Shown in pieces: positions 15,009 to 27,424 of a DNA stretch of 64,000 bases (positions are counted from its first letter, which is position 1; the number at the start of each line of letters is the position of its first letter). Position numbers and translations under genes: made by a program. Origin of the DNA: Komagataeibacter sp. FNDCR2. Lineage in GTDB: Bacteria > Pseudomonadota > Alphaproteobacteria > Acetobacterales > Acetobacteraceae. The notes under the pieces were generated by a model that searched no databases, was not told the origin of the DNA, and saw only the letters and a program-made list of their open reading frames with translations. The DNA is taken from NCBI RefSeq assembly GCF_021295395.1, contig NZ_JAIWOU010000001.1, positions 871,001 to 935,000 of the forward strand. Direction: 5' to 3'.

Positions 15009-15392
15009 ACAGGAAACCTCACATCTCGAATTGTAACATGTTTTTTCCGAAAAATAATAGATGTGGGTTTATCCGCCCCCGCCCGGTTCCTTTCCTCTGT
15101 CGCCCGGTGAATTCTATCACCGTGGGTCACCGGGGACATGACAATTTCGCCCCAAGGCGTACACTACTGTTTATGCGGCAACGCGTGCATGGGCCAGAGG
15201 GTACTTTCCCTGCCCTGCCTTCCCGGCATTGGGGCGGGCTGGCCGCATGTCGGGTTCAGGTGTGGGGAATGGGGCCTCGGGTTAGCCTGCCATTATTGCG
15301 ATCTTTTCTTAATTGCGACAGGATATCAGGGAGAACCATGCGCCATTTCCGGTGTTCATGACCTGAACCCGCGTCGAAAAAGGAAAATCCTT
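15009..15392. promoter_or_regulatory. 384-bp divergent intergenic region with nested inverted repeats upstream of sodC
   Basis: No gene is credible here. An inverted repeat pairs CCCGGTGA (15103-15110) with TCACCGGG (15127-15134). An inner alternative pairs GGTGA (15106-15110) with TCACC (15117-15121), so two mutually exclusive hairpins are possible. The region must hold promoters for the minus-strand transferase and for sodC. A weak sodC candidate is TTGCGA near 15296 with GGATAT about 19 nt downstream. The rest shows nothing recognisable. Confidence 0.4.
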
Positions 15393-15923
15393 ATGCCCTC
15401 GCCTCGCCTTAACCTGTTTGCCGCCCTGGTGCTCAGCCTTGCCCCTTTCTCCTCCATGGCGCATGCGGCCGATACTGCGGTGGGCAACCTGTTGGGCAGC
15501 GATGGGACCGCACGCGGAACCATTCATGTCACGGAAGCCCCGAAGGGCGTTCTGCTGCGCGTTGAGGCCAAAGGGCTGATCCCCGGCTGGCATGGCATCC
15601 ATTTCCATGAAAAAGGGGATTGCGGGGCACCGAAGTTCACCAGCGCCGGTGCGCATGTGCATGCGACATCTCCCGTGGTGCATGGCCTGCTGAACCCGAA
15701 TGCGAATGATGCCGGTGACCTGCCCAATATTTTTGTCGGAACGGATGGAGCGGCCACGGTGGAATTTTATTCCACACTGGTTTCCCTGAACGGAAAGGAC
15801 GGTCGCCCGGCGCTGCTCGATGCCGATGGTTCGGCCCTTGTCATTCATGCCAATCCCGATGACTACCAGACCCAGCCCATCGGTGGCGCGGGGGACCGGG
15901 TTGCCTGCGCGGTGATCCGGTAA
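15393..15923 (+). CDS. sodC: Periplasmic Cu/Zn superoxide dismutase
   Basis: SodC dismutates superoxide in the periplasm. The 176-residue precursor has a signal peptide (about residues 1-25, hydrophobic core LNLFAALVLSLAPF, cleavage likely after AHA). The mature part has the copper-site block HGIHFHEKGDC, the zinc-loop histidines in SAGAHVHATSPVVHG and the C-terminal GDRVACAVI with the second disulfide cysteine. The ATG at 15393 has AGGAAAAT upstream and gives a proper signal peptide; longer in-frame starts do not. It stands alone, ahead of a bidirectional repeat/terminator. Confidence 0.95.
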   Translation: MPSPRLNLFAALVLSLAPFSSMAHAADTAVGNLLGSDGTARGTIHVTEAPKGVLLRVEAKGLIPGWHGIHFHEKGDCGAPKFTSAGAHVHATSPVVHGLLNPNANDAGDLPNIFVGTDGAATVEFYSTLVSLNGKDGRPALLDADGSALVIHANPDDYQTQPIGGAGDRVACAVIR

Positions 15924-15960: not shown

Positions 15961-16040
15961 AAAAGTTTTTGGGTGCCGCCTTTTTTCAAAAAGGCGGCGT
16001 TTCCTGAAGCTTTTTGAAAAAAGCTTCACCAAAAACTTTC
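15961..16040. repeat. Branched inverted repeat (two inner hairpins inside an outer stem), probable dispersed intergenic element and bidirectional terminator
   Basis: An outer stem pairs AAAGTTTTTGG (from 15962) with CCAAAAACTTT (ending 16039). Inside it are two perfect hairpins: GCCGCCTTTTT/AAAAAGGCGGC at 15975-15998 and GAAGCTTTTT/AAAAAGCTTC at 16006-16027. As RNA or cruciform DNA this would form a three-way junction, and it is self-complementary on both strands. It sits between the convergent sodC and acyl-CoA synthetase genes. A decayed relative lies near 29968. I recall similar elements as abundant in Komagataeibacter genomes, but this was not searched. Confidence 0.85.
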
Positions 16041-16060: not shown

Positions 16061-17839
16061 TTAAGGGCAGGAAACCATCAGGTGCCTGCGCATGATCTTT
16101 CCGGATACGGTTGTGGGCAGGTGCCTGACGAAGCGGACCTCCCTGAGTCCGATCCATCGGCCAAGCGCCTGATTGACCCGCCCGATGATGTCTTCAGAAG
16201 AAAGTGTGCATTCCGCCCCGGAATCAGTCACCACATAGGCGACAGGCCGCTGCCCTCTCAGTTCGTCCGGAATTGCGACCACAGCACAGGCATGAACGGC
16301 CGGATGGGTGGCGATGATCCTTTCGATCTGCACGCCCGAAATCCGCCGTCCCGCAACCTTGATGACATCATCGGAGCGCCCGAGCATATGCACGGCGCGG
16401 CTGGCCTTGATCATGCCTTCGTCGAAGGTGCGATAATACTGTTTCGTTTCATCAAGATAGGCGGCAGGAACACGGATCGCTCCATCCTTCCATACGCCAG
16501 CCAGACAGCCGGGCGGCAGCGGCAGGGACAGGACAATCTCGCCGCACGGTTCACCCGGCGTGGACGGCACGATGGCCGGGCGGAATCCCGGCGCGGGCCG
16601 CCCGATATCGTTCATGAGCGGGACCGGCTCACGCTCGGGCAGGCCGAAGAAATGGGCGGTGATGCTCCACCCGGTTTCCGTCTGCCACCAGTGATTGACT
16701 ACAGGTTTGCGGAAAAAGGATCGCGCCCAGTCCAGCAATGTCGGGTCCGCATACTCTCCGGCCACGAAAATGCGAGCCAGCGCAGGCAGGATCGCCCCTG
16801 ACAGATGACGGCTTTCCTGCCGCATGAGGCGCATCTGGGTGGGCGTGGTGAACAGGCAGGTCACGGCGTGTTCGTGACAGAGCATGCGGATGGCGGAAGC
16901 GGATGCGCCCCCTTCCACAATCACGCTGGTGCACCCGCTGATCAGTGGCGCATAGACGCCGTAGGAATGACCGACAACCCAGCCCAGATCCGATGTCGTG
17001 AAAAAGGTATCACCGGGTTTGCAGCCATAGATCAGTTCCATGGACAGGGCGAGTGCTACGGCATGCCCGCCATTGTCGCGCACGATGCCTTTCGCATTGC
17101 CCGTCGTGCCGGAGGTATGAAGGATATAGAGGGGATCTTCGGAGCGGAGCATGATTGGCTCTGCCGGTGCGGACTGTTCCAGCATGCGAAAATCATGATC
17201 CCGTACCGGCTGAAGCGATGCCGGACAGGCTTCACGCTGCACGATCACGCAGGCCTGTGGCCTGTGCGTGACTCTGGCCAGTGCCTCATTCAGGGCAGGT
17301 GCGGATGGAATGGGCGTCTGCCCCTGAAAGCTGCAACTGGCAATGATGATGACTTTCGGGGCCACATCATCAATCCGGCGCGCCAGTTCGGGCCCGGCGT
17401 AGCCCGCAAAGACCACCACATGCACGGCCCCGATCCGCGCGCAGGCCAGCATGGCAATGGCCGTCTCGATCATGGTTGGCATGGCGATCAGGACCCGGTC
17501 GCCTTTCTCCACCCCCAGCGAGCGCAGGCCACCGGCAAACCCGGCCACCCTGCCCTGCAACTCCCTGTAGGTTACAACCTGACGTTCCTTGGTCGCGCAG
17601 GAATGCCAGATCAATGCCGCCTGCCCGCCGCGACCATTTTCAACATGCCGGTCGACGGCGTTATGGCAGGTGTTGAGCGTGGCGTCGGGAAACCAGTCAT
17701 GCCAGCCATCCGCCCGCGTTTGGCACGCTGTCACAGGTGCCTGCTTCCATGTGACGCGCTGCGCCGCAGCCAGCCAGAACTGCTCTGGCTGATTCAACGC
17801 CGCATCGTACATCGCCTCGTATGTCATCCATGGAAGCAT
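16061..17839 (-). CDS. PrpE-like short-chain acyl-CoA synthetase appended to the Nit1C cluster
   Basis: An AMP-forming ligase of the acetyl/propionyl-CoA synthetase family (592 residues) that activates a short-chain acid to its CoA thioester. The N-terminus (YDAALNQPEQFW, LNTCHNAVDRHVENG) and the block SDLGWVVGHSYGVYAPL resemble propionate-CoA ligase PrpE. The adenylation loop TSGTTGNAKG is at residues 242-251 and the C-terminal lysine K581 in TVSGKIMRR is present. GGAG at 8 nt supports the ATG at 17839. It starts 14 bp after the flavoprotein gene stop, so it is probably co-transcribed with the nitrilase cluster and may activate an acid made there. Substrate is not determined. Confidence 0.8.
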   Translation of the reverse strand: MLPWMTYEAMYDAALNQPEQFWLAAAQRVTWKQAPVTACQTRADGWHDWFPDATLNTCHNAVDRHVENGRGGQAALIWHSCATKERQVVTYRELQGRVAGFAGGLRSLGVEKGDRVLIAMPTMIETAIAMLACARIGAVHVVVFAGYAGPELARRIDDVAPKVIIIASCSFQGQTPIPSAPALNEALARVTHRPQACVIVQREACPASLQPVRDHDFRMLEQSAPAEPIMLRSEDPLYILHTSGTTGNAKGIVRDNGGHAVALALSMELIYGCKPGDTFFTTSDLGWVVGHSYGVYAPLISGCTSVIVEGGASASAIRMLCHEHAVTCLFTTPTQMRLMRQESRHLSGAILPALARIFVAGEYADPTLLDWARSFFRKPVVNHWWQTETGWSITAHFFGLPEREPVPLMNDIGRPAPGFRPAIVPSTPGEPCGEIVLSLPLPPGCLAGVWKDGAIRVPAAYLDETKQYYRTFDEGMIKASRAVHMLGRSDDVIKVAGRRISGVQIERIIATHPAVHACAVVAIPDELRGQRPVAYVVTDSGAECTLSSEDIIGRVNQALGRWIGLREVRFVRHLPTTVSGKIMRRHLMVSCP

Positions 17840-17853
17840 GGCGCTTACTCCGA

Positions 17854-19101
17854 TCAGGCTACGGGCACATCTTTGCCGGTGATCTGGCTGGCCAGCCACG
17901 CGGCATCGCGCGAAACGCCTGAGAACCGTCCCGATCCCCAAGTGTGCAGCCATGGCAGACCGAGGAAGTAGAAGCCCGGCGCATCGGTCACGCCGCGATG
18001 CCAGACCGGCTTGCCCGCTCCGTTAAAGACGGGCACATCAATCCAGCGATAGCTCGGGCGGAAACCGATGCACCAGACGATCGACGTGATCCCGGCAGCC
18101 TTCAGATCCAGCGGCGTGTTGCTGCTATCGGGCTCCCACACAGGCACATAAGGAGCTTCGGTTGGAGCCGTGATCCCTTCACGGGCGATGTAGGCGTCGA
18201 TGGATTTCTTGATGTCGGCATTTGTCCTGTCCGCATCATCAAGGTTTTCCGCAAGATCCGGCGCGAAGTGCGCCACTTCATCGCGGATTGTCTCCAGCGT
18301 GCCGTGCAGGCCCACGCCTTCCCTTGCAAACAGGCGCAGGTCAAGGTCATGGCCGCCATTTCGGCCCGTGACATAATGATTGGTCTTGTCGCGCGCACCG
18401 TCACGCAGGGGGTGATGATCCACCGTCAGGTCATAGAAGTGCATGTCCGCAAGCCAGTCCACAATGTCACGCCCACGGTAGAAGCGCGAGACGCGCGGGG
18501 CGGAGCCGACGCAGAGATGGACCCGGCGTTTTTCAAGGAACAGATCCTCGACAATCTGCGCACCGGACTGGCCGCTGCCCACGACCAGCACCGCACCCTC
18601 CGGCAACTGGGCCGCATTACGGTAATCCTGCGAGTGGACCTGATGGATGGCGGGGTCGATTGCACTGGCGTAACCGGGGATGACCGCGTCCTGATACGCA
18701 CCTGATGCGATGACCACATGTTTCGCGTGCCAGACGTCACCACCCGCCACCACGCGGTAACCACCAGCTTCATGGCGCGTAATCGAGGTAACAGCCGTGT
18801 GCTCGCGCAGCGGCGGGCTGAAGGAGTCCACAAAACCCTTCACGTAATCGATGATTTCCTGCTTCACCATGAAGCCGTGCGGGTCTTTCCCTTTGTAGGG
18901 ATGACCGGGGAGTTCGCACTGCCAGTTCGGTGTGACCAGGCAGAAATTGTCCCAGCGTTCATCGTCCCACGAATGGCAGGCGGTCTTTGCCTCAAAGACA
19001 ATGTGCTCCACCTTCTCGCGGCAGAGGTACCAGCTCATGGACAGGCCGGCCTGCCCGCCGCCCACGATGATGACGGGGATGGTTTTTTCATTCTGTGTCA
19101 T
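17854..19101 (-). CDS. nitH: MSMEG_0569-family flavin-dependent oxidoreductase (Nit1C cluster)
   Basis: A 415-residue FAD- and NAD(P)H-dependent oxidoreductase resembling flavin-containing monooxygenases. The FAD-binding GGGQAG is at residues 14-19 and the second nucleotide motif GSGQSG at 175-180. The C-terminal block GFYFLGLPWLHTWGSGRFSGV is typical of this small family, which occurs almost only in nitrilase 1 clusters. Start chosen at 19101 (MTQNEKTIPVIIVGG); the longer frame adds 17 unlikely residues. It lies 16 bp after the small MSMEG_0570-family gene and 14 bp before the acyl-CoA synthetase. The substrate is unknown; oxidation of a cluster-specific intermediate is inference. Confidence 0.88.
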   Translation of the reverse strand: MTQNEKTIPVIIVGGGQAGLSMSWYLCREKVEHIVFEAKTACHSWDDERWDNFCLVTPNWQCELPGHPYKGKDPHGFMVKQEIIDYVKGFVDSFSPPLREHTAVTSITRHEAGGYRVVAGGDVWHAKHVVIASGAYQDAVIPGYASAIDPAIHQVHSQDYRNAAQLPEGAVLVVGSGQSGAQIVEDLFLEKRRVHLCVGSAPRVSRFYRGRDIVDWLADMHFYDLTVDHHPLRDGARDKTNHYVTGRNGGHDLDLRLFAREGVGLHGTLETIRDEVAHFAPDLAENLDDADRTNADIKKSIDAYIAREGITAPTEAPYVPVWEPDSSNTPLDLKAAGITSIVWCIGFRPSYRWIDVPVFNGAGKPVWHRGVTDAPGFYFLGLPWLHTWGSGRFSGVSRDAAWLASQITGKDVPVA

Positions 19102-19117
19102 GGTTATTCTTTTCGTC

Positions 19118-19405
19118 TCAATAACTGAAAGACAGGATGCGCACCTGCGCATCGGACTGGTTCAGAAAAGGCGCACCGGCCTGCCTTATGGCCTGAAGCT
19201 GGCCAAGGGCGCGGCTGCACGGGAAGCCATAGCGCGCGCGAACCCGCTCACTGGCTGCCGTCAGGGCCGTGTCTGCTTTTTCAAGGAATTCCCGGATCCG
19301 GTACTCCTGACCGGGCATGAAGTGGTCCCGTATGACCAGCGAGGGGGAGTAACAGTCGGTCTCCTGCCCATCGGGCCAGCGCACGCGAAAGGTCATTTCG
19401 GGCAT
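19118..19405 (-). CDS. nitG: MSMEG_0570-family small protein (nitrogen starvation response; Nit1C cluster)
   Basis: A 95-residue protein with no known activity. It begins MPEMTFRVRWPDGQETDCYSP and has the family-typical segments PGQEYRIREFLEKA and ASERVRARYGFPCSRA. Related proteins sit in the same neighbourhood in mycobacteria, cyanobacteria and proteobacteria. GGAG lies about 10 nt upstream of the ATG, and the start overlaps the end of the glycosyltransferase gene by 13 bp, so it is coupled. A longer open frame upstream is rejected because only this part resembles the family. The biochemical role is unknown. Confidence 0.82.
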   Translation of the reverse strand: MPEMTFRVRWPDGQETDCYSPSLVIRDHFMPGQEYRIREFLEKADTALTAASERVRARYGFPCSRALGQLQAIRQAGAPFLNQSDAQVRILSFSY

Positions 19406-20571
19406 GATGACAAAACTCCAGAAACAGGGGCATCGGCGCGCGACAGGGCGGCCAGACGCCGATATGCGGGAAGGTGTCGAGCGGCGACGCTGCTCCAGTC
19501 GAAACGGCGGGCCGTTGCGGGGCCGCTGATGCGGAAACGGTCGCGATTTTTGACGCTCAGCGCGTCCCGCAAGGCCAGAAACAGGGTGTCGGGGCGCGTC
19601 AGGTCGCACCACAGCGCATCCGCCCGCGAAAGGTGCCCGGTAAAGGGGGCGATTTCCGGCACGATGACTGGCGTGCCACAAGCCAGCGCCTCCAGCGGGC
19701 ACAGGCCAAACCCTTCGGTTATGGACGGATAGGCGAGCACATCCGCCTGCCGGTAGAAGGCAGGCATGTCCTCATCCGCAACCGGCCCGGTTATGGTGAC
19801 ATGACCGGCTGCACCGCTTTCGCGCAGGCGTGCCGCGAACAGGGTGCGGTAGGACGAATGATCCAGCAGCGAGGCCCCGCCCGCCACAACCAGATGCGCA
19901 TCAGGCCGTTCGCGGCGCAGGGCCACAAACGCTTCCAGCAGGTGCAGCGTATTCTTGCGCCGCTCGATCCCGCCTACGGACAGGATCAGGCACTGGCCCG
20001 CAGGCAGGTGATACCGCGCCCGCAACGCGGCATCCCGCGCGCCTGGCATGGGCGAAAAGCGCACGGGATCGACCCCGTTGCCAACAACCGGGGCTTCACG
20101 GCCATGCTCGTTGCGCAGGATGCCTTCCCACAGCGTGCTGACGGTAAACAGTTCCGTCGCTGCCCTGATCCCCCGTTCCTGCCGCGCGGCAAGGACCGGG
20201 TGGGAGAAATGGTCGAGATGGTGGACCGTGCGGGCAAAGCCCGGTATTCGCCCTTCTTCCACCAGTTCGGCCAGTGCATTGGCGCTGATGGGGTCCTGTG
20301 CGTGCAGCACGTCAAATTGCTGCCCACGCAGTGCATCCCTGATCTCGGCAATGCGTCGTTCCACCAGTGTTGGCAGATCGGGCTCGGGCACGGCCGGGAT
20401 GCAGTAGGTCGTACAACGGGGCGTGCGGAAGAAACCGGCCCCGGTCACATCCGGGGCGATCAGCGTCGCGTCGTGGCCTGCGTCACACAGGGCTTCCGCC
20501 AGCGCCATGCCATGCACCACGCCGCCGCGCGGATTGGTGGAGTGGGTCAGGATGCCGATGGACAGGCTCAT
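19393..20571 (-). CDS. MSMEG_0565-family glycosyltransferase (Nit1C cluster)
   Basis: A 392-residue GT-B glycosyltransferase of the GT4 type that occurs in many, not all, nitrilase 1 clusters. The N-terminal MSLSIGILTHSTNPRGGVVH is characteristic. The C-terminal half has LSVGGIERRKNTLHLLEAF and the E-x7-E motif in EGFGLCPLEA. The ATG at 20571 overlaps the upstream AIR-synthase-like gene by 4 bp, and the 3' end overlaps the next gene by 13 bp. Its presence suggests that the cluster product is a glycosylated metabolite; that is inference. Confidence 0.88.
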   Translation of the reverse strand: MSLSIGILTHSTNPRGGVVHGMALAEALCDAGHDATLIAPDVTGAGFFRTPRCTTYCIPAVPEPDLPTLVERRIAEIRDALRGQQFDVLHAQDPISANALAELVEEGRIPGFARTVHHLDHFSHPVLAARQERGIRAATELFTVSTLWEGILRNEHGREAPVVGNGVDPVRFSPMPGARDAALRARYHLPAGQCLILSVGGIERRKNTLHLLEAFVALRRERPDAHLVVAGGASLLDHSSYRTLFAARLRESGAAGHVTITGPVADEDMPAFYRQADVLAYPSITEGFGLCPLEALACGTPVIVPEIAPFTGHLSRADALWCDLTRPDTLFLALRDALSVKNRDRFRISGPATARRFDWSSVAARHLPAYRRLAALSRADAPVSGVLSSCPK

Positions 20572-21542
20572 GGCGCACACCCCATGAGCGGGACCTGCGC
20601 GAGATCCCAGAAGGTCTCTTTCGCGCCGTTCCACATAACGTCCAGCCGCTGCGTGCTGTCACACTGACCGATGACAGAAGCCGCAATGTCACGTCCATGA
20701 AACCGGGCCATGACCGCCTCAGCATCCTCGGGCCGGGCCGTCAGCAGGTAGCCGTAGCTGGGGAACGCGGACAGCCAGCGCTCCATCGGTGCATCGTCGG
20801 GGCGGGGAATGTCATCGAGCGTGATGGTCATGCCGATGCCCGAACATTCAGCCAGCATGAGGGCGGTGCCCAGCAGGCCAGCCATGCTGATGTCCTTGGC
20901 GGCGCGGCTCAGCCCGGCCTCGGCTATGCCGGGCAGCAGGTCGAGATCGCCCCGCAGGCGTGTCGCCTCCCCGGTGCCACACAGGGCTGAACTGGCGTCC
21001 CAGAACGGATGCGGGTCATGCCAGCGCCCGCGCAGGTCGATGGCGGCGATCAGGATCTCACCGGGACGGGCATCGAAACTGGTCAGCAGATGACGGGCAC
21101 GGCCAAGGATCGCGACCGACAGCGAATTATGGGTACTGCGCCTGTTGGTATGGCCACCCACGACAGGCACGCCATAGGTGCGCGCACCGTCATGAAGGCC
21201 GGTCAGGATCATTGCCGCCGCTTCGGACGTATCGCTCCACAACGCATCGACCACGGCTACGGGACGACCGCCCATGGCTGCAATGTCGCTGACATTGACC
21301 ATCACGCCGCAATACCCGGCGAACCACGGCATGGACCGCACGAAGCTGTCCTGAAACCCCTCGCTGGCCAGCAGGAGATAGCCATCGCCATCCGGGATCG
21401 CCGCGCAGTCATCGCCGAGGCGAATGGCCCCTCCCGCGTCATGGCCAAGGATAGCGGCTACCTGCGCAATATCCTGCTTGCCGGCCAGCGCGCGACCGTT
21501 GCGCAGGTGGTCAAGCATGTTGCTCAATGCGTGTGCCATCAT
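20568..21542 (-). CDS. nitF: AIR-synthase-related protein, sll0787 family (Nit1C cluster)
   Basis: A 324-residue relative of PurM/SelD/ThiL-type ATP-dependent enzymes. RLGDDCAAIPDGDGYLLLAS matches the metal/ATP-binding segment of PurM-like folds, and VNVSDIAAMGGRPVAVVDAL the dimer-core motif. VVGGHTNRRS and AAKDISMAGLLGT are further family blocks. In some actinobacteria this domain is fused to the GNAT domain encoded just upstream here. It starts at 21542 as ATGATG overlapping the GNAT stop and ends in a 4-bp overlap with the glycosyltransferase gene. It probably uses ATP to activate an amide- or formyl-type group, but the substrate is unknown. Confidence 0.87.
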   Translation of the reverse strand: MMAHALSNMLDHLRNGRALAGKQDIAQVAAILGHDAGGAIRLGDDCAAIPDGDGYLLLASEGFQDSFVRSMPWFAGYCGVMVNVSDIAAMGGRPVAVVDALWSDTSEAAAMILTGLHDGARTYGVPVVGGHTNRRSTHNSLSVAILGRARHLLTSFDARPGEILIAAIDLRGRWHDPHPFWDASSALCGTGEATRLRGDLDLLPGIAEAGLSRAAKDISMAGLLGTALMLAECSGIGMTITLDDIPRPDDAPMERWLSAFPSYGYLLTARPEDAEAVMARFHGRDIAASVIGQCDSTQRLDVMWNGAKETFWDLAQVPLMGCAP

Positions 21543-22102
21543 GCCACCTGCCGGTTGCGGGGCTGTGGGCGCAGCAGCCATGTCTGGTCATGACCATGCG
21601 GCGGATAGCGCGACAGGTCAGCCTGCATGTCGTGATGCGGCAGGCCGTGCAGGGTTATGGTCCCAAGGCTTTTCCAGTGCAGGCGACGGAAGAACAGCAC
21701 GTTCTGTTCCTGCACCTGCGCCAGGAACCGCGTGGCCCCAAGCCCGTGCGCCGTGCTGACCGCCATGCGGATGAGTTCCGCCCCGATCCGCCCCAGTTTG
21801 CGGTGGTCTTCATGGACGGCCAGACGGGAGCCACGCCAGACACCGGGTTCGGCTTCATGGATACGTACGGCACCGACGATCCGGTCCGGCATGCCCGCCA
21901 TGCAACACGCGGTAATGATGGGAATGGCGGTCGCGTCGATCGCATCGCGGTCATCATCGGCGAACACCTGCTGTTCGGTGCAGAACACGTCGCGGCGCAG
22001 CGCGTGATAGCCCGCGCGTTCCCACGGCGTGCGGGCCAGACGCACGACATATTCCGTAGGGATGAACGGCCTGTCCTCCACGCCTTCGAGCATCGTGCTC
22101 AT
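21539..22102 (-). CDS. nitE: GNAT acetyltransferase, MSMEG_0567 N-terminal family (Nit1C cluster)
   Basis: A 187-residue GCN5-related acyltransferase. The N-terminal segment RPFIPTEYVVRLA leads into ALRRDVFCTEQQVFADDDRD, and the acyl-CoA binding region is around SRLAVHEDHRKLGRIGAELI. The C-terminal HWKSLGTITLHGLPHHDMQADLSRYP (shown here only in part of its context) is a family signature of the nitrilase cluster. The start at 22102 overlaps the radical SAM stop by 4 bp; a second in-frame ATG lies three codons later. Substrate unknown. Confidence 0.86.
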   Translation of the reverse strand: MSTMLEGVEDRPFIPTEYVVRLARTPWERAGYHALRRDVFCTEQQVFADDDRDAIDATAIPIITACCMAGMPDRIVGAVRIHEAEPGVWRGSRLAVHEDHRKLGRIGAELIRMAVSTAHGLGATRFLAQVQEQNVLFFRRLHWKSLGTITLHGLPHHDMQADLSRYPPHGHDQTWLLRPQPRNRQVA

Positions 22103-23208
22103 TGTTCGTAGGCCGAAAGCGAGGAACACGCACCGCACCGGCCGCACCCGGCCCGGATGTCGGTGGACTTCATGTTTGCCTCGCGCAACATCCGCCCAAG
22201 TGGTGCGAGCACGGACTTCATGAAATCACCAGAGGGTGGCGCATGATTTTCCAGCGGTGTGCCCGAGATAGGCACGAACGGCACCACGAAGGGATAGACC
22301 CCGAGCACAATCAGGCGTTCGGCCAGCGCCAGAATATCGCCCGCACTGTCACCAAGCCCCGCCAGAATATAGGTATTGACCTGCCCGCGCCCGAAGATCG
22401 GGGCGGCGGAGGCAAAAGCCTCCATGTAACGATCGACGCTGACCGTGGCCTTGCCGGGCATGATCTTCTCGCGCACCGCCTGAGTTGCGGCTTCGAGATG
22501 CATACCCAGGCTGTCGGCCCCGGCGTCGCGCAGGCGCTGGAACCAGCCGTGATCGCGCGGCGGCTCGCACTGGACCTGAAGCGGCAGATCCACTGCGGCC
22601 CGGATGGCACGGGCTGACTCGGCCAGCACGGCAGCACCCCGGTCCACCACATTGGGCGTGCCGGTGGTCAGCACCATGTCGCGCACGCCGTCCAGTTCAA
22701 CGGCGGCTTTGGCGACCTCGGCCAGTAGTGCTGGCGTCTTGTAGGCAATGGTGCGATCGGCCTCCAGCGACTGGCCAATGGCGCAGAACTGGCAGGACGT
22801 GCGCCGGTCGGCATAGCGGATGCAGGTCTGGTGCACCGTGGTCGCCAACGTGTCGCGCCCGTGCAGCAGGGCGATTTTCCAGTACGGAATGCCCTCCGCC
22901 GTGCTCAGGCCATAAAAGCGCGGGGCGGCCGGGAAATGGATCGTGCCCAGTGTCTGCCCATCGCGTAGCAGCTTGCTCGCCCCGTTCCGGTCCGGCGGGC
23001 TGGCCTGAAACGGAGACCGCCGTGCGCCGGATGTATGGACCGGCACCATTACGGTCTGGCCCGCGATGGTGATCGTCTTGTGATCCGAAGGGCCGGCCCC
23101 GCCCTTGCGGGTCATGCCGCCGGTCTGTGCGCCGATCTGAAGCCCGAAGGATTGCAGGTCGGTAACAAGCTTGCGGTCGGAAAGCGTGCCGAGTGTCGGA
23201 ACGGTCAT
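22099..23208 (-). CDS. nitD: Radical SAM protein, MSMEG_0568 family (Nit1C cluster)
   Basis: A 369-residue biotin-synthase-like radical SAM protein. The cluster-binding cysteines appear as C129, C139 and C142 ([14 protein letters not shown]), a spacing of C-x9-C-x2-C rather than the textbook C-x3-C-x2-C. Three more cysteines at C355, C358 and C361 (CGRCGAC) end the protein and could hold a second Fe-S cluster. [12 protein letters not shown] and [17 protein letters not shown] are further recognisable blocks. The ATG overlaps the nitrilase stop by 4 bp. The chemistry it performs is unknown; a radical rearrangement on a nitrile-derived product is speculation. Confidence 0.9.
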
Positions 23209-24179
23209 GACGCGGCCTCATCTATGGATGTGGGAAACGGATCGGCTTCATCAACGTAATGAACGGTGCGGGCGGGCCGCCGGTCCTGAAGCAGGCTGAG
23301 CAGTTCGGGGCGTGCGTAATGCCCCACGGAATCCATCATCCGCTTGCGCTTGGTGATGAGCGCGAAGTCAAGATCGGCAATCACCATCCCCTCGCCTTCC
23401 GTCAGCGGTTCCCCCAGCAGCTTGCCTTCGGGTGAGACGATGGTCGTGAAGCACCCACCCCGCAGCGGCCCCTCCAGTGCAGGATCACCTGCTATTTCCT
23501 TGATCTGCTCTTCCGTCAGCAAACCCGTGGCGTTCACGACAAAGCAGCCGGATTCCAGCGCGTGATGCCGGATGGTGACTTCCATCTGGTCGGCGAATAT
23601 CTGGCCGACCAGTGAGCCGGGGAACTGGGCGCAGTGGATTTCCTCATGCTGGGTCATCAGCGCGTAGCGGGCGAGCGGATTGTAATGCTCCCAGCAGGCC
23701 AGCGCCCCGATGCGCCCAGCAGCACTGTCCACCACTTTCAGCCCCGCGCCATCCCCCTGCCCCCAGACCATGCGTTCATGATAGGTGGGCGTGATCTTGC
23801 GGCGCTTGAGCAGGATTTCTCCCGTGGCGTCGAAAATGATCTGGGTGTTGTAGAGCGTGCCGAAATCCCGTTCATTCACGCCCAGCACCACGACCATGCC
23901 GGTGTCGCGCGCGGCCTCGGCCACCATGTCGGTAACCGGGCCGGGTATGACGACGGCGCGTTCGTAGAGCGCCAGATGTTCGCCACCAAAGCGGAAGGCG
24001 GGCTGGATGAACGAGAAATAGGGGTAGTACGGCACGAAGGTTTCGGGAAAGACTGCCAGTTTCACGCCTTTTCCGGCGGCGTCGCGGATGGCCTGACAGA
24101 CTTTCCGGGCAGTACCCAGACCGTCGTCACCAAGGACGGGACTGATCTGGATGGCTGCGGCACGAACGATACGGGACAT
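23205..24179 (-). CDS. nitC: Nitrilase, sll0784 / Nit1 family
   Basis: A 324-residue carbon-nitrogen hydrolase expected to hydrolyse a nitrile to acid and ammonia. The catalytic triad is E46 (FPETF), K128 (KRRKITPT) and C162 (ALACWEH), with a second glutamate E135 in [12 protein letters not shown]. Length and these blocks fit the aliphatic nitrilase branch found in Nit1C clusters. A homologue in Pseudomonas has been tied to growth on cyanide as nitrogen source (recalled, not checked). The start at 24179 ([11 protein letters not shown]) was chosen because the domain begins there. It is 25 bp after the nitB stop and overlaps the radical SAM gene by 4 bp. Confidence 0.93.
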
Positions 24180-24204
24180 GGCTTGCGGTCCTTCCCGATA
24201 GTTC

Positions 24205-24687
24205 TCAGACGGTCCAGGTATCGAGGATGAAGGCATTGTCCCGGCGGGCAAGCAGGATCAGGTCCAGCACGTCCTGCGGATTGATGGGCGTGATACCGGG
24301 GATCAGGGACTGCTCGCCATGGCCGTAGAGCGCCTGTAGCGCGAAGCGGCAGGCATAGACCTTGCCGCCTTCCTCAAGGATCTTCGTGATCTGCCTGTTG
24401 CAGTTCATGTGCCCCGGAAAGGCTTCGTCACCCAGACGGGGAAAGCCACGCTGCACGCCAAGGGTGACGCCGGGACCATAGAGCAGGACGGAGGTCTCGA
24501 AGCCCTTGCGGATCAGGCGGGTTGCCTGCAGCAGATTGACGAAGCCGATCGAGCCCTCAAAGGCGACCGTATGGAAGGTGATGAGGGCTTTTTCGCCGGG
24601 TCTGGCTTTGACGTCCTCAAAAACCTTGTTTTCATAATCGACGAAGCAGTCGCCATCCCTGTGGGGGGCGTGTTCGACTTTCGGCAT
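24205..24687 (-). CDS. nitB: MSMEG_0572/sll0783-family nitrogen-starvation response protein (first gene of the Nit1C operon)
   Basis: A 160-residue protein with a DsrE-like pattern: [20 protein letters not shown] followed by [16 protein letters not shown], and a single conserved-looking Cys region [20 protein letters not shown]. The Synechocystis relative sll0783 is induced by nitrogen starvation and affects polyhydroxybutyrate accumulation (established literature, recalled). GGAG at 7 nt supports the ATG at 24687. It is the promoter-proximal gene of the cluster, following a 339-bp AT-richer leader. A sulfur- or intermediate-carrier role is only a guess from the fold. Confidence 0.87.
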
Positions 24688-25026
24688 GGTCTTTCTCCCG
24701 TGTGGTGCGGTGTCCGGCGGGATGCCGGGGTGACCGCTCTGGCGGGAGGAAACGTGGCATGGGATATGTCGGCGGTAAAATTTTGTATGGAACTAACATG
24801 TGGTACAAACAGGGCAAATTAAGGAATACAAACCCTGTCGGCAGTGACATGGGCATACAATAAATCATGCCGCCCCACACAATCTACCCGTTTTTATATA
24901 AACATCTGTTTTTAAAAGGATTTGTTATCACGTATTCGTGAAAACATCCGTATCCTGTTTCCTGAAAAAAGGCATACGGACCTGTGAAATCAGTCTGGCG
25001 CACCGATTCCGGGCGTAACGGCAGGG
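24688..25026. promoter_or_regulatory. 339-bp leader between the MocR gene and the Nit1C operon
   Basis: No credible gene. The stretch is clearly more AT-rich than its neighbours, as expected for a promoter. It contains the TACAAA motif array described separately and a small hairpin TCACG-TATT-CGTGA at 24928-24941. A possible minus-strand promoter is TTGTAC with CAAAAT 17 nt downstream, overlapping the array. No sigma-54 type GGCAC/TTGC pair was found. No clear terminator for the MocR gene is visible, so read-through into nitB is possible. Confidence 0.5.
24782..24833. promoter_or_regulatory. Candidate operator array (TACAAA repeats) in the Nit1C leader
   Basis: TACAAAC occurs twice in direct orientation (24804-24810 and 24827-24833), 23 bp apart, about two helical turns. 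TTTGTA at 24782-24787 forms an inverted pair with the first copy (TTTGTA-N16-TACAAA). MocR/GntR-type regulators commonly bind spaced direct repeats near the promoter they control, and one is encoded immediately upstream. Position about 100-145 bp from the nitB start fits. Function is inference. Confidence 0.45.
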
Positions 25027-26430
25027 TCAGACAATATCGGCAAACCCGGGGGAGCGTCTGTGTTGCAGGACCGACAGGACCCCGTGCAGGGATTCCTCAA
25101 GGCCCGTCGCATCCGGCGCGCTGCCCAGTGCGATGCGCGCACGCTGCGGCGGCTCGCCACTGATGGTGAACACATTGCTGGGCACCAGCGCCAGCCCCCG
25201 CCTGCGCGCATAGGCCACAAAATCCGTACTGCCCCACCAGTCCGGCAGTTTCAGCCAGACATGCGGGCCATCGGGGTTCATGCAGTGCCCTTCCCCCAGC
25301 ACCCTGCGGGCAATGGACTGGCGCAGGCGCAGTTCCTTGCGGATGGCATGCAGGATCGTATGGGCCTGTTCCGTCTGCATCCACCGCGCCGTCAGCGCAC
25401 TGAGAAGACCGGCATTGGTAAGCGCTATGGCCCGGATGGCCGCCGTCACCCGCCGGGTCATGTCGGCATTGGGCAGGGCGACATAGGCGGTACGCAGGCC
25501 CGGGCTCAGCGTCTTGGCGAGTGTGGCCACATAGCTGACACGACTGTGGTCAAGTGCTGCCAGCGCCGGCAGCGGGGTGTCCATAAGCAGGCTATAGGGA
25601 TCATCTTCCGCAATATGCAGGTGATGCCGCTGGGCAACGGCAAGGATATCCTTGCGCCTTTGCAGCGACATCGTGGCCGTGGTGGGATTGTGAATGGTCG
25701 GGATGCAGTAAAGCAGCCGGGGATGGTGTTCGGCGCAGACCCGATCAAGCTGGTCAGGCATCATGCCTTCCATATCGCTATCCACGCCGACCAGAATAAG
25801 GTCGAACTGTGCCGCTATGGTCCGGATGCCGGGATAGGCGATGCGGTCGGTCACAATCACATCACCCGGCTGGGTATGTGTGCTGACAATGGCGGCCAGT
25901 GCGCTCTGGGCGCCGGGAGACACCAGAATTTCGTCCGTTCGCCGCTGGCCGATGACGGGTGCGATCCATTTCGCGCCAAGCTGGCGTTCCTCAACGGTGC
26001 CACCTGTCACGCGATAGGACATGAGACTGTTGAGATCCTGCTGTTTCAGGATGGCCGCAATATCGTTCTGGATGATGCGTTGCAGGGATGGCTCCTGCGG
26101 AATGGGCGGCAGGTTCATGGTCAGGTCAACCACGGCCGGACCGGTATGACGCCAGTGGCTCTGCCCCGCGCCGACACGGATAAAGGTGCCCCGGCCTACC
26201 GTCGCGTCGATCAGGCCACGCCGCCGGGCCTCGCTGAACGCACGCGTCACGGTCGTCAGATTGGTGCCCAGGTGCTCCGCGATCGTTCGCTGTGGAGGCA
26301 GCCTGTCGCCTTCCCGCAGGTCTCCCTTGCGGATGGAGTGCGCCAGGGCATCGGCCAGCGTCAGGTAAATCGCATTCGGGCTCCGGCTGATCTCTTCCTT
26401 CCAGTGAACCAGATAGGGATATGCGGACAT
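25027..26430 (-). CDS. MocR-type transcriptional regulator (GntR winged helix fused to PLP-dependent aminotransferase-like domain)
   Basis: A 467-residue regulator. Residues about 15-85 form the GntR winged helix (LADALAHSIRKGDLREGDRLP, then AEHLGTNLTTVTRAFSEARR). The rest is a fold type I aminotransferase-like effector domain with IPTIHNPTTATMS, AEDDPYSLL and the PLP lysine in LAKTLSPGLRTAYV, so cofactor binding looks intact. The ATG at 26430 was chosen; an in-frame TTG lies 9 codons upstream. It sits directly upstream of the nit operon on the same strand and is the best candidate for its local regulator, sensing an amino compound or PLP. The target is inference. Confidence 0.85.
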   Translation of the reverse strand: MSAYPYLVHWKEEISRSPNAIYLTLADALAHSIRKGDLREGDRLPPQRTIAEHLGTNLTTVTRAFSEARRRGLIDATVGRGTFIRVGAGQSHWRHTGPAVVDLTMNLPPIPQEPSLQRIIQNDIAAILKQQDLNSLMSYRVTGGTVEERQLGAKWIAPVIGQRRTDEILVSPGAQSALAAIVSTHTQPGDVIVTDRIAYPGIRTIAAQFDLILVGVDSDMEGMMPDQLDRVCAEHHPRLLYCIPTIHNPTTATMSLQRRKDILAVAQRHHLHIAEDDPYSLLMDTPLPALAALDHSRVSYVATLAKTLSPGLRTAYVALPNADMTRRVTAAIRAIALTNAGLLSALTARWMQTEQAHTILHAIRKELRLRQSIARRVLGEGHCMNPDGPHVWLKLPDWWGSTDFVAYARRRGLALVPSNVFTISGEPPQRARIALGSAPDATGLEESLHGVLSVLQHRRSPGFADIV

Positions 26431-26567
26431 GACAGAAGGATTCCATATATTCGACAAGAATCCATTCGATCATATCCCATACAATCAGTGCAATGATCCA
26501 CGGCACGGATTATGAATGGAGTGAGGCAGCCCACCAGATGGAACCGGACAATGGGTAAGTCCATCAT

Positions 26568-26918
26568 TCACCCTGCAAGCGGGAGCAACTGCCTGACCTG
26601 CTCCAGCAGGGTTTTCATGCGGAAGGGTTTTTCCAGCAGGGGCAGAGGAGCGTAACCCGCCAGCCGGTCCGGATCGCCGCTCATGACAATAACATGGCTC
26701 CCGTGCGCGCGGGCGGCGGCGATAAAGGCATCCGGCTCACCATCGGGCAGCGTCAGGTCCACCAGCACCAGCGAAAACGCCTGGCCGTCAATCTGTCGCA
26801 TGGCATCCGTCACGCCCCCGCTTATGGTGGCGCGGACGCCGTGCGCTTCAAGCATGGTGGCGACCAGTTCCGCTATTGTCGCTTCATCCTCGACAATCAG
26901 GGCAGAAAACTGGGTCAT
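26568..26918 (-). CDS. Stand-alone response regulator receiver domain
   Basis: A 116-residue single-domain receiver with no output domain. The phosphoacceptor is D54 (LVLVDLTLPDG), the acidic pair is in LIVEDEA, the switch serine is S80 (IVMSGDPD) and the conserved lysine is K97 (LLEKPF). Such proteins act as phosphorelay shuttles or bind a partner. The start overlaps the Nudix gene stop by 4 bp, so they are translated together. No histidine kinase is nearby. The partner is unknown. Confidence 0.85.
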   Translation of the reverse strand: MTQFSALIVEDEATIAELVATMLEAHGVRATISGGVTDAMRQIDGQAFSLVLVDLTLPDGEPDAFIAAARAHGSHVIVMSGDPDRLAGYAPLPLLEKPFRMKTLLEQVRQLLPLAG

Positions 26919-27424
26919 GACAGCATGCTTTCGGTCCGGGGTTCGGGGGTGCTGCCGGGTGTGCGGGTCCGGGGCGCCGCCGGCCATGGGGCAATGCCCC
27001 GGTCGGACAGGGCCAGCGTGCCGAGTTCCAGCAGCCCGGGGCTGAAGGCGGAAGGGCTGGCACGTACCGCCGCCAAATCGAACCAGCCGACATCACAGGC
27101 GTCATCTCCCGCCGCAATCCGGGTCCAGCCATTGTCGTGGCATTTAACGGCGACGATCAGGTAATGGAAACGGATATCTCCGCCCTTATCCCGCTCGATC
27201 AGGTCAAAGGCGGTCAGCGTGCCTTCGGCATGGGTTTCAAAGCCGGTTTCCTCACGCAGTTCGCGCGCCGCCGCATCCAGGTAGCTTTCGCCATATTCGA
27301 TGCGACCGCCGGGAAAACCCCATAAACCCTGATCGGGTGGATTGCGCCTGCAAACCAGCAGCATGCGTCCATCACGGACAATAATGGACAGAACGGCGCC
27401 TGCAAGTGTCATGTTACCAGACAT
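26915..27424 (-). CDS. Nudix hydrolase
   Basis: A 169-residue Nudix protein. The Nudix box is intact: G-x5-E-x7-REL-x-EE-x-G in GRIEYGESYLDAAARELREE followed by TGF. The N-terminal MTLAGAVLSIIVRDGRMLLV and CRRNPPDQGLWGFPGG resemble ADP-ribose/NADH pyrophosphatase-like and mutT-like members that open GDP-mannose or nucleotide substrates, but the substrate cannot be read from sequence. The C-terminal 35 residues are Pro/Arg-rich and probably disordered. Coupled to the receiver gene by a 4-bp overlap. Confidence 0.88.
   Translation of the reverse strand: MSGNMTLAGAVLSIIVRDGRMLLVCRRNPPDQGLWGFPGGRIEYGESYLDAAARELREETGFETHAEGTLTAFDLIERDKGGDIRFHYLIVAVKCHDNGWTRIAAGDDACDVGWFDLAAVRASPSAFSPGLLELGTLALSDRGIAPWPAAPRTRTPGSTPEPRTESMLS

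Follow-up and report, generated by a model that had tools for sequence, protein, structure and literature searches.

The window analysed here is a 64,000-nucleotide stretch of Komagataeibacter sp. FNDCR2 DNA, and it carries a complete copy of the already known nitrilase cluster Nit1C. Together with a MocR-type regulator gene and a CoA ligase gene of its own in last place, the cluster makes up a ten-gene MocR-nit unit. An earlier, sequence-only reading had named eight nit genes within 16061-24687, and all eight were located, running in a single direction on the minus strand from 24687 to 17854. In a family-model search, 8/8 proteins scored above the curated NCBIfam cut-offs for Nit1C families with the gene order kept, every model agreed on the Nit1C identity, and internal stops were absent from all eight genes, consistent with the copy having been called complete and intact. 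That reading is incomplete rather than wrong: its range also takes in a ninth gene, the CoA ligase (16061-17839), which went unmentioned, and it missed the MocR/GntR regulator upstream (25027-26457), and it is this ninth gene and the conserved regulator that hold new information. Its guess of an acetic acid bacterium proved apt, as the host shares a genus with a genome whose locus (G184, locus L045) has a nitD stretch identical to nitD of the Komagataeibacter nataicola LMG 1536 locus (L071).

Features of the MocR-nit unit, from high to low coordinate (positions are those of the window).
Feature	Position	Strand	Evidence
TTGTATG element just 5' of the MocR gene, candidate operator	26478..26484	-	sequence
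MocR-type regulator (GntR HTH and aminotransferase-fold)	25027..26457	-	Pfam GntR 50.6 bits, Aminotran_1_2 66.8 bits
TTGTATG element 5' of nitB, candidate MocR half-site	24854..24860	-	sequence
CATACAA (TTGTATG inverted) 5' of nitB	24783..24789	+	sequence
nitB, MSMEG_0572/Sll0783 family, DsrE-like per literature	24205..24687	-	TIGR04044 279.3 bits (cut-off 109.85)
nitC, Nit6803-family nitrilase	23205..24179	-	TIGR04048 561.9 bits (cut-off 502.6); PDB 3wuy 478 bits
nitD, radical SAM protein, CX9CX2C and C-terminal CX2CX2C	22099..23208	-	TIGR04043 577.2 bits (cut-off 303.7)
nitE, GNAT acyltransferase	21539..22102	-	TIGR04045 236 bits (cut-off 68)
nitF, AIR-synthase-like ATP enzyme	20568..21542	-	TIGR04049 431.2 bits (cut-off 321.3)
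GT4 glycosyltransferase (GT), MSMEG_0565 family	19393..20571	-	TIGR04047 440.2 bits (cut-off 259.85)
nitG, MSMEG_0570 family small protein	19118..19405	-	TIGR04042 128 bits (cut-off 80)
nitH, flavin-dependent oxidoreductase, MSMEG_0569 family	17854..19101	-	TIGR04046 664.1 bits (cut-off 498.35)
AMP-forming, PrpE-like CoA ligase, ninth operon gene	16061..17839	-	ACAS_N, AMP-binding, AMP-binding_C domains
Two inverted repeats past the ligase stop, GAAGCTTTTTTCAAAAAGCTTC and GCCGCCTTTTTGAAAAAAGGCGGC, possible operon end	15975..16027	-	sequence read directly

The seven core genes that define Nit1C in the accessible part of PMC1199592 (ORF1, nitrilase, radical SAM, acetyltransferase, AIR synthase, ORF6 and flavoprotein) are present in that order, on a common strand and with little intergenic DNA. 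Successive gaps measure 25 (nitB/C), -4, -4, -4, -4, -13 and 16 nt (0570/nitH). The earlier statement that most junctions are 4-bp overlaps holds narrowly, with exact 4-bp overlaps at four of the seven (nitC/D, D/E, E/F and F/GT); the GT/0570 junction is a 13-bp overlap with a conserved MPEM start. NitC retains intact nitrilase Glu-Lys-Cys motifs, including ACWEH, which we take to carry the catalytic residues. Cys113 of NitB is invariant in an 18-row alignment, as are C129, C139, C142, C355, C358 and C361 of NitD in 15 rows. A PDB sequence search with NitB returned no significant match; NitF matched PurL, ThiL, HypE and PurM, all weakly, and the nearest structures to NitE were SACOL1063 and YjcF. 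The inverted repeats past the ligase stop were not listed by a consensus terminator scan, and across the region both terminator-like matches (9 versus a chance mean of 7.2) and promoter-like matches (2 versus 2.9) stayed within chance.

For comparison, we mapped 165 loci of relatives, the window's own locus excluded, and removed 10 duplicates by nitD sequence, which left 155 distinct loci (134 non-cyanobacterial and 21 cyanobacterial) that are related to one another. Eighty loci from a contig search were the best 80 of at least 581 and are biased towards the window's kin. The window's own genome aside, regions were taken from 25/25 genomes above cut-off in the family search, 15/15 in the phylum search, 7/9 in the class search (G789 and G872 left out) and 42/49 in a search of family f66, probably the beta-proteobacterial Burkholderiaceae. 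Recurrent neighbours among the 155 loci included DUF1348 (10/155) and cytochrome bd (9/155). The genes past nitH or within the cluster in other loci had no recurring theme; globin, glyoxalase, deaminase-like, cytochrome c, ABC transporter and methyltransferase genes were seen there, as well as several without a match.

The regulator gene lies upstream of nitB in the same direction as the nit genes, and its true start is likely near 26430. Its product fuses a GntR DNA-binding domain to an aminotransferase fold (PF00392 and PF00155, both above cut-offs), the architecture of the MocR class; the top NCBIfam model, EhuR, scored 362 bits, under its cut-off of 480. MocR-family proteins bind PLP, and their effectors are amines or amino acids. 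Genes at least 30 percent identical to the window's MocR accompany 129/134 non-cyanobacterial Nit1C loci and 0/21 cyanobacterial ones, weaker matches in two loci (L112, L173) being uncounted. We found no account of MocR as a Nit1C regulator in the open-licence literature. TTGTATG occurs three times in the window versus 2.83 expected by chance, and all three copies lie upstream of mocR or nitB. Of 31 distinct regions upstream of nitB in acetic acid bacteria, counted without regard to kinship, 30 contain the element versus 1.7 expected from mononucleotide shuffles, and 29 contain at least two copies.

The ninth gene starts 14 nt past nitH and, judged by its domains, encodes an AMP-forming CoA ligase. 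Its best NCBIfam matches are the PrpE models, although it fails both curated cut-offs (PRK10524 propionate--CoA ligase, 527 bits versus 955; TIGR02316, 488 versus 827); it also falls under the AcsA cut-off (441 bits). In the PDB it matches 5gxd, which we take to be a PrpE, at 465 bits versus 303 for the best Acs entry, and when the two are aligned they share identical TSGTTG and HWWQTETGW stretches. A beta-proteobacterial counterpart (L105) exceeds the TIGR02316 cut-off (926 versus 827), and for the L052 ligase (scanned as L254) acetate and propionate models score about equally. The product of this extra enzyme in acetic acid bacteria is probably a CoA building block with three carbons, but its substrate could also be acetate or a different small acid, since the window ligase falls below the PrpE and AcsA cut-offs and the L052 ligase is ambiguous.

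In a midpoint-rooted ligase tree of 34 rows with some long branches, all 17 nit-linked ligases (the window's included, drawn from the 36 distinct ligase loci and the window) fell with PrpE-like rows, outside an AcsA clade of 13 rows with 100/100 support. The tree omitted L254-L256, L261, L262 and L264, whose genes were the same as rows already included, and L260, whose extracted sequence ran into a stop where the hit began. Both members scanned from the AcsA clade (L266, L271) pass AcsA, and L263, outside it, passes PrpE. The nit-linked ligases form two separate PrpE-like groups, alpha and beta, which could reflect one old linkage that was lost later. Including duplicates, the ligase lies directly 3' of nitH in 41/42 ligase-bearing loci, and a ligase occupies this place too in three loci from beta or f66 genomes (L105, L223, L240). 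With up to five candidates scored per genome, the 17 best matches to the window ligase in 249 family genomes were all Nit1C-linked. The window genome yielded no second Acs/PrpE-type ligase in a first look that scored 10/10 candidates, the sole other match being 28 percent identical over 258 residues, so general metabolism could depend on this gene as well. In each of seven other family members searched, there were further Acs/PrpE-type genes unlinked to Nit1C. One genome with Nit1C (G226, genus g73; locus L044) gave no ligase match that exceeded 30 percent across 250 residues; it is kin to ligase-bearing genomes and its contig stops just past nitH, and the missing ligase may be an assembly gap.

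In other bacteria, the role of the PrpE-like ligase seems to be filled at the same spot by an unrelated enzyme. The slot past nitH holds the ligase in 36/155 distinct loci (at least 38 percent identity; weaker ligase-like matches in L220, L231 and L241 uncounted) and an LnmK-like methylmalonyl decarboxylase gene in 33/155 (including L220 and L221, where the gene was only partly matched), and the two occur together in 0/155. The LnmK-like gene stands immediately after nitH in 30 of its 33 loci. Neither module was found in 60 of 129 judgeable loci, that is, those with a module or with nitH on the nitB strand and more than 2.2 kb past the cluster. In the f66 sample, a TIGR04099 match was present in 26/249 genomes (23 above cut-off), all among the 49 with Nit1C versus 0/200 others, and in 25/26 the gene was on the nitB contig. 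A genome with no nitB match (G368) has a TIGR04099 protein barely above cut-off (131.9 versus 125). LnmK-like proteins of L120 (the Cupriavidus necator A5-1 locus) and L129 pass both TIGR04098 and TIGR04099. According to the accessible text of PMC9396626, LnmK-type enzymes convert methylmalonyl-CoA to propionyl-ACP; LnmK itself works with a carrier protein, and its sequence match to the LnmK-like protein is weak (34 bits).

A methylmalonyl-CoA mutase gene was found in 18 loci, each of which also has the LnmK-like gene. The two mutases scanned (L120, 976; L126, 1010) pass the methylmalonyl-CoA mutase cut-off of 876, and an 18-row alignment shows Y57, R175 and H212 to be invariant; we equate these with Tyr89, Arg207 and His244 of the P. 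shermanii enzyme. Alignments took only genes with coverage above 0.8 (31 LnmK-like, 18 mutase). For this protein (c58) other B12 mutases, isobutyryl- or hydroxyisobutyryl-CoA mutase, had been considered as ones that would suit the breakdown of acetone cyanohydrin; they were dropped, as both scanned proteins pass the methylmalonyl-CoA mutase cut-off. In single cases, the LnmK-mutase pair adjoins an additional nitE copy (L215), and nitE is relocated beside the ligase (L223). Nothing on an acyl-CoA supply slot of Nit1C was found in the open-licence literature. Going by gene families and positions, it is nearly an even question whether the two modules supply NitE, the GNAT enzyme, with propionyl-CoA or with a propionyl thioester; if propionyl-CoA is the donor, loci with neither module must draw on general metabolism.

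A bolder reading, which we judge rather less likely than not, is that Nit1C makes an N-acylated small molecule with a propionyl group, and that proteobacteria have repeatedly added non-homologous makers of the propionyl thioester. In the mechanism that we favour, at slightly under even odds, MocR would control the operon through the TTGTATG repeats; its signal is probably an amine or an amino acid, and on the bolder reading an amine of the pathway. The PrpE-like ligase, added in alpha- and beta-proteobacteria, would convert a small acid, most likely propionate, to its acyl-CoA; elsewhere in these two groups the supply would fall to the LnmK-like decarboxylase, in beta lineages sometimes with its own adjoining mutase gene. 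NitE, a GNAT fold by model, would move the C3 acyl group onto an amine, and NitF might then activate the N-acyl product with ATP, for ring closure on the bolder reading; the formyltransferase/PurM pair in purine synthesis offers the analogy. Family naming implies that MSMEG_0567 fuses NitF with NitE. Building and trimming the remainder would fall to the radical SAM protein, the nitrilase, the flavoprotein and the glycosyltransferase, with ammonia released by the nitrilase.

It is rather unlikely, in our judgement, that the unit is instead a cyanide or nitrile assimilation operon, in which cyanide and carbonyls would give cyanohydrins, NitC would free ammonia and an acid, and the ligase would return the acid, such as a hydroxy acid or the propionate that propionitrile yields, to central metabolism. 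The accessible text of PMC11049912 and PMC8567248 reports that nit1C is required for cyanide assimilation by Pseudomonas and that Nit1C proteins increase with cyanide residue and 3-cyanoalanine, and cytochrome bd oxidase genes adjoin the cluster in 8/42 distinct Acetobacteraceae loci. Such an operon nevertheless offers no task for the radical SAM, GNAT, AIR-synthase-like and glycosyltransferase proteins, and the LnmK-like decarboxylase, as the alternative slot gene, would oppose propionyl-CoA salvage through methylmalonyl-CoA. A redox or stress system, in which NitB and the flavoprotein would do the work of keeping NADPH balance and peroxide resistance, strikes us as very improbable. It would account for the peroxide sensitivity of an M. 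smegmatis mutant deleted for the homologous cluster and the resistance restored by expression (PMC6039565, accessible text), and for the Synechocystis sll0783 mutant, which under nitrogen starvation had an NADPH/NADP ratio that was not raised and less PHB (PMC3901256, likewise); but such phenotypes can be secondary to an absent metabolite, and the nitrilase, the AIR-synthase-like protein and the acyl-CoA modules are left unexplained.

The ligase might also be an ordinary acetate/propionate-CoA ligase, co-transcribed with Nit1C by chance in acetic acid bacteria and without a role in the pathway. The single Acs/PrpE-type ligase found in the window genome and the genome with Nit1C but no found ligase would both suit such a bystander. 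Its near-constant place after nitH, the linkage of all 17 best family matches, the same position in beta or f66 loci and the unlinked genes of this type that the seven family members also hold argue against it, and we think it improbable.

Earlier work connects Nit1C with growth on cyanide, nitrogen starvation, PHB and resistance to peroxide. If the N-propionyl reading is true, the cyanide growth, PHB and peroxide phenotypes are consequences of the N-acyl metabolite or its nitrile precursor. Two unrelated enzyme systems in one slot, both pointing to a C3 acyl thioester, provide a concrete NitE substrate to test and suggest 13C-propionate as an isotope label for a product search, and the MocR linkage provides a regulator for effector screens. 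The supply slot and the MocR linkage make the old question of the Nit1C product directly testable.

Nit1C was described in 2005 (Podar et al., PMC1199592), and we compared the window with the Pseudomonas nitBCDEFGH, Synechocystis sll0783 and M. smegmatis MSMEG_0565-0572 (gpr) forms. The links to cyanide and nitrogen starvation cited by the sequence-only reading appear in the accessible literature, which gives no reactions for the radical SAM, GNAT and AIR-synthase-like proteins, nor a product, in agreement with the product having been called not known. The core families are all here in the known order, and the glycosyltransferase lies between the AIR-synthase-like and 0570 genes, a position that it shares with its Burkholderia and Rubrivivax counterparts; the beta-proteobacterial gene order and glycosyltransferase position available from Podar et al. 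match the window. That source describes the genes neighbouring Nit1C as not conserved; the window differs by adding the PrpE-like ligase past nitH and the MocR regulator. The Pseudomonas regulator, by the text accessible to us, is the sigma-54-type NitA, confined to that form and absent beside the window cluster, whereas the adjacent regulator here is of MocR type. The pairing that we propose between NitE and the LnmK-like protein resembles E. coli MadA, which, per the available part of PMC8666670, joins a GNAT half reported closest to SACOL1063 with a hot-dog malonyl-ACP decarboxylase that makes an acyl thioester. MadA, however, is a single fused protein of lipid metabolism, its hot-dog family is a different one (Pfam 09500), and its product is acetyl, not propionyl.

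The eight genes that the sequence-only reading had named, from the DsrE-like nitB to the flavoprotein gene nitH, are present in the expected order. Searched against the NCBIfam models, all eight proteins exceeded the curated cut-off for their own Nit1C families, and none of the genes contains an internal stop, in agreement with the claim of an intact cluster. Most junctions had been described as 4-bp overlaps; four of the seven are exactly that, but one is a 13-bp overlap and two are short gaps. The range first assigned to the cluster (16061-24687) does enclose the eight genes, but it also holds a CoA ligase gene that was overlooked, as was a MocR-type regulator gene upstream. The host was rightly taken for an acetic acid bacterium: it shares its genus with a genome (G184) whose locus, L045, has the nitD stretch of the Komagataeibacter nataicola LMG 1536 locus. 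Four other genomes of this genus in the family sample carry the cluster, and 26 of the 249 genomes in that sample, the window's included, encode the radical SAM protein above cut-off.

Features of the window and of Nit1C loci (L-numbers) mapped in other genomes
Feature	Coordinates or loci	Strand or placement	Remark
Eight Nit1C genes, window	24687-17854	minus
AMP-forming CoA ligase gene, window	16061-17839	minus	592 residues; starts 14 bases after nitH
nitD, window	22099-23208	minus	radical SAM
nitG, window	19118-19405	minus	MSMEG_0570 family
Cu/Zn superoxide dismutase gene, window	15138-15923	convergent with operon, downstream	PF00080, 124.9 bits
Response-regulator receiver-domain gene, window	26568-26987	upstream of mocR	PF00072, 32.4 bits
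Cytochrome bd genes	L037, L039, L040, L072	after ligase
Cytochrome bd genes	L047, L058, L060, L061	before mocR
DUF1348 gene	L125 (11513-11944)	between nitC and nitD	cyanobacterial
DUF1348 gene	L047, L060, L061, L086, L087, L107, L130, L133, L218	beside Nit1C
Related inserted gene, Pseudanabaena	L093 (4900-5805), L097 (10012-10917)	between nitF and glycosyltransferase gene	L093 copy a methyltransferase (Pfam)

Propionate--CoA ligase models fit the window ligase better, with 527 and 488 bits, than acetate--CoA ligase models (449 and 441 bits), but it passed the NCBIfam cut-off of none of them. Its best solved relative in the PDB is 5gxd (465 bits), the best acetyl-CoA synthetase entry reaching 303 bits; TSGTTG and HWWQTETGW are identical between the window ligase and 5gxd, and the C-terminal SGKIMRR is kept. 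The enzyme may prefer acetate or another small acid over propionate. The window genome holds no second Acs/PrpE-type ligase, and a search for AcsA-type acetyl-CoA synthetase (E <= 1e-15) gave, besides the nit-linked ligase, only one partial match at 28 percent. Two inverted repeats can be read 3' of the ligase gene; a consensus terminator scan called neither.

Within the family, all 17 proteins closest to the window ligase (this enzyme counted, identity 100 down to 49 percent) are Nit1C-linked, and the 18th, at 47 percent, comes from a genome in which no radical SAM match exceeded the cut-off. Counting against this linkage is G226, whose Nit1C contig stops just past nitH (L044) and whose other contigs lack the ligase beyond a 30 percent partial match. 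In a tree of 34 rows, the 17 nit-linked ligases, the window's among them, form two separate PrpE-like groups, one from the window's family and one from beta or f66 (probably Burkholderiaceae) genomes. The starred branches require at least two changes of the nit-linked label, and the two groups may reflect two recruitments, or a single one with later losses. None of the 13 rows in the AcsA clade is linked to Nit1C, and the two that were scanned exceeded the AcsA cut-off. The beta ligase of L105 scores above the cut-off of the PrpE model TIGR02316, and the ligases of L240 and L223 score below it.

We mapped 165 Nit1C loci from other genomes (25 from the window's family, 80 named loci from a nitB scan [best 80 of 581], 20 from phylum and class samples, and 40 from f66), of which 155 remained after removal of 10 duplicates. 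A PrpE-like ligase gene was found in 36 of these and a gene for an LnmK-like methylmalonyl decarboxylase in 33, never both in one locus (0/155). Sixty of the 129 judgeable loci, that is, those with a module or with nitH on the nitB strand and more than 2.2 kb beyond the cluster, have neither. The ligase gene directly follows nitH in 41 of 42 ligase loci, duplicates included, and the LnmK-like gene follows it within 138 bases in 30/33. Eighteen of the 155 loci (16 from f66, plus Cupriavidus L120 and Methylotenera L126) also encode a methylmalonyl-CoA mutase, and in every one of them the LnmK-like gene is present too. In L120 and L129 the LnmK-like protein exceeds the cut-offs of TIGR04098 and TIGR04099, and the mutases of L120 and L126 both pass PRK09426. 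Within genus g292, L220 and L221 match the LnmK-like gene only partly (38 and 29 percent coverage), which, set against the full copies with mutase in L218 and L222, suggests recent loss of the module.

Within the f66 sample, nitB exceeded its cut-off in 49/249 genomes and a TIGR04099 protein was found in 26/249 (23 over cut-off), all 26 among the 49 and 25 of them with it on the nitB contig (Fisher p about 5e-22, kinship ignored); the two draws were taken as the same genomes because the second brought no new one. Of 200 genomes in the phylum sample, four passed the TIGR04099 cut-off, three being Nit1C genomes and the fourth, G368, a weak exception; two more matches fell below it.

Methylmalonyl-CoA mutase makes the (2R) isomer of methylmalonyl-CoA from succinyl-CoA. 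In our alignments, three mutase residues, which we take to be Tyr89, Arg207 and His244, are invariant in 18/18 rows, and one LnmK-like tyrosine, presumably Tyr62 of LnmK, is kept in 30/31. According to the excerpts available, LnmK-type enzymes load a carrier protein with the methylmalonyl group of methylmalonyl-CoA, which they then decarboxylate to a propionyl thioester (PMC9396626), the LnmK substrate being (2R)-methylmalonyl-CoA by a reference title in PMC8666670. The ligase and LnmK/mutase modules are thus predicted to converge on a C3 acyl thioester; the LnmK-like step may depend on a carrier protein. We regard the two-module pattern as the valuable part of the finding, since it gives the Nit1C pathway a putative acyl donor that can be tested.

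The mocR gene of the window runs in the direction of the operon. Among the 155 distinct loci, a MocR gene accompanies 129/134 non-cyanobacterial clusters (exceptions L084, L099, L121, L127 and L178) and 0/21 cyanobacterial ones. With duplicates included, 133/165 loci have it no more than 1.5 kb upstream of nitB (92 divergent, 41 tandem), and six have it elsewhere in the mapped stretch. TTGTATG occurs in 30 of the 31 distinct nitB upstream regions from acetic acid bacteria, against 1.7 predicted by mononucleotide shuffles (kinship ignored), with at least two copies in 29. The window holds three copies, equal to the chance number, all upstream of nitB or mocR. In the 98 other MocR-bearing upstream regions the top 7-mers were TTGATCG (61; 2.1 expected) and TTGATTG (58; 2.7 expected). 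For P. pseudoalcaligenes, the excerpt available assigns a MocR to the cio cluster.

In 8/42 distinct Acetobacteraceae loci and in one f66 locus (L218), genes for a cytochrome bd oxidase lie next to Nit1C. The sole CydA scanned (L040) matched E. coli-type models far below cut-off, and the sole CydB (L037) passes TIGR00203; the oxidase is possibly of the cyanide-insensitive type, which would suit a cyanide setting. A DUF1348 (NTF2/SnoaL-like) gene adjoins the cluster in 10/155 loci.

Two cysteine motifs of NitD, CX9CX2C and a C-terminal CX2CX2C, are conserved without exception in 15/15 rows; the first departs from the usual radical SAM spacing, CX3CX2C. The C-terminal motif could hold a second cluster, and the NitD profile matched no PDB sequence at E <= 0.001. 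Because NitF matched PurL, ThiL, HypE and PurM entries of the PDB only weakly, ring closure, phosphorylation and nitrile formation are all possible reactions. The confident AlphaFold model of NitG (pLDDT 94) found no fold match in the PDB and could represent an undescribed fold; across 31 aligned rows, one cysteine and an SPS stretch never vary.

The excerpts covered link Nit1C with growth on cyanide for Pseudomonas (PMC11049912, PMC8567248) and with nitrogen starvation for Synechocystis (PMC3901256), as the sequence-only reading had stated. For Synechocystis the same source adds NADPH and PHB; for M. smegmatis the link is with resistance to peroxide (PMC6039565), and for cyanobacteria with niche distribution (PMC9716671, PMC10119275). 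These excerpts give no pathway product. Among the matches listed from open-licence PMC literature, none presents MocR as Nit1C's own regulator or connects the cluster with a PrpE-like ligase or with LnmK and methylmalonyl-CoA mutase, and we consider these three links provisionally novel. The excerpt of Podar et al. reports that neighbouring genes are not conserved outside Nit1C (PMC1199592). The cluster itself is of a known kind, of which the ligase and the MocR regulator make the window copy a variant. Its gene order is that of the beta-proteobacterial form in the same excerpt, with the glycosyltransferase gene likewise between the AIR-synthase-like and 0570 genes (PMC1199592).
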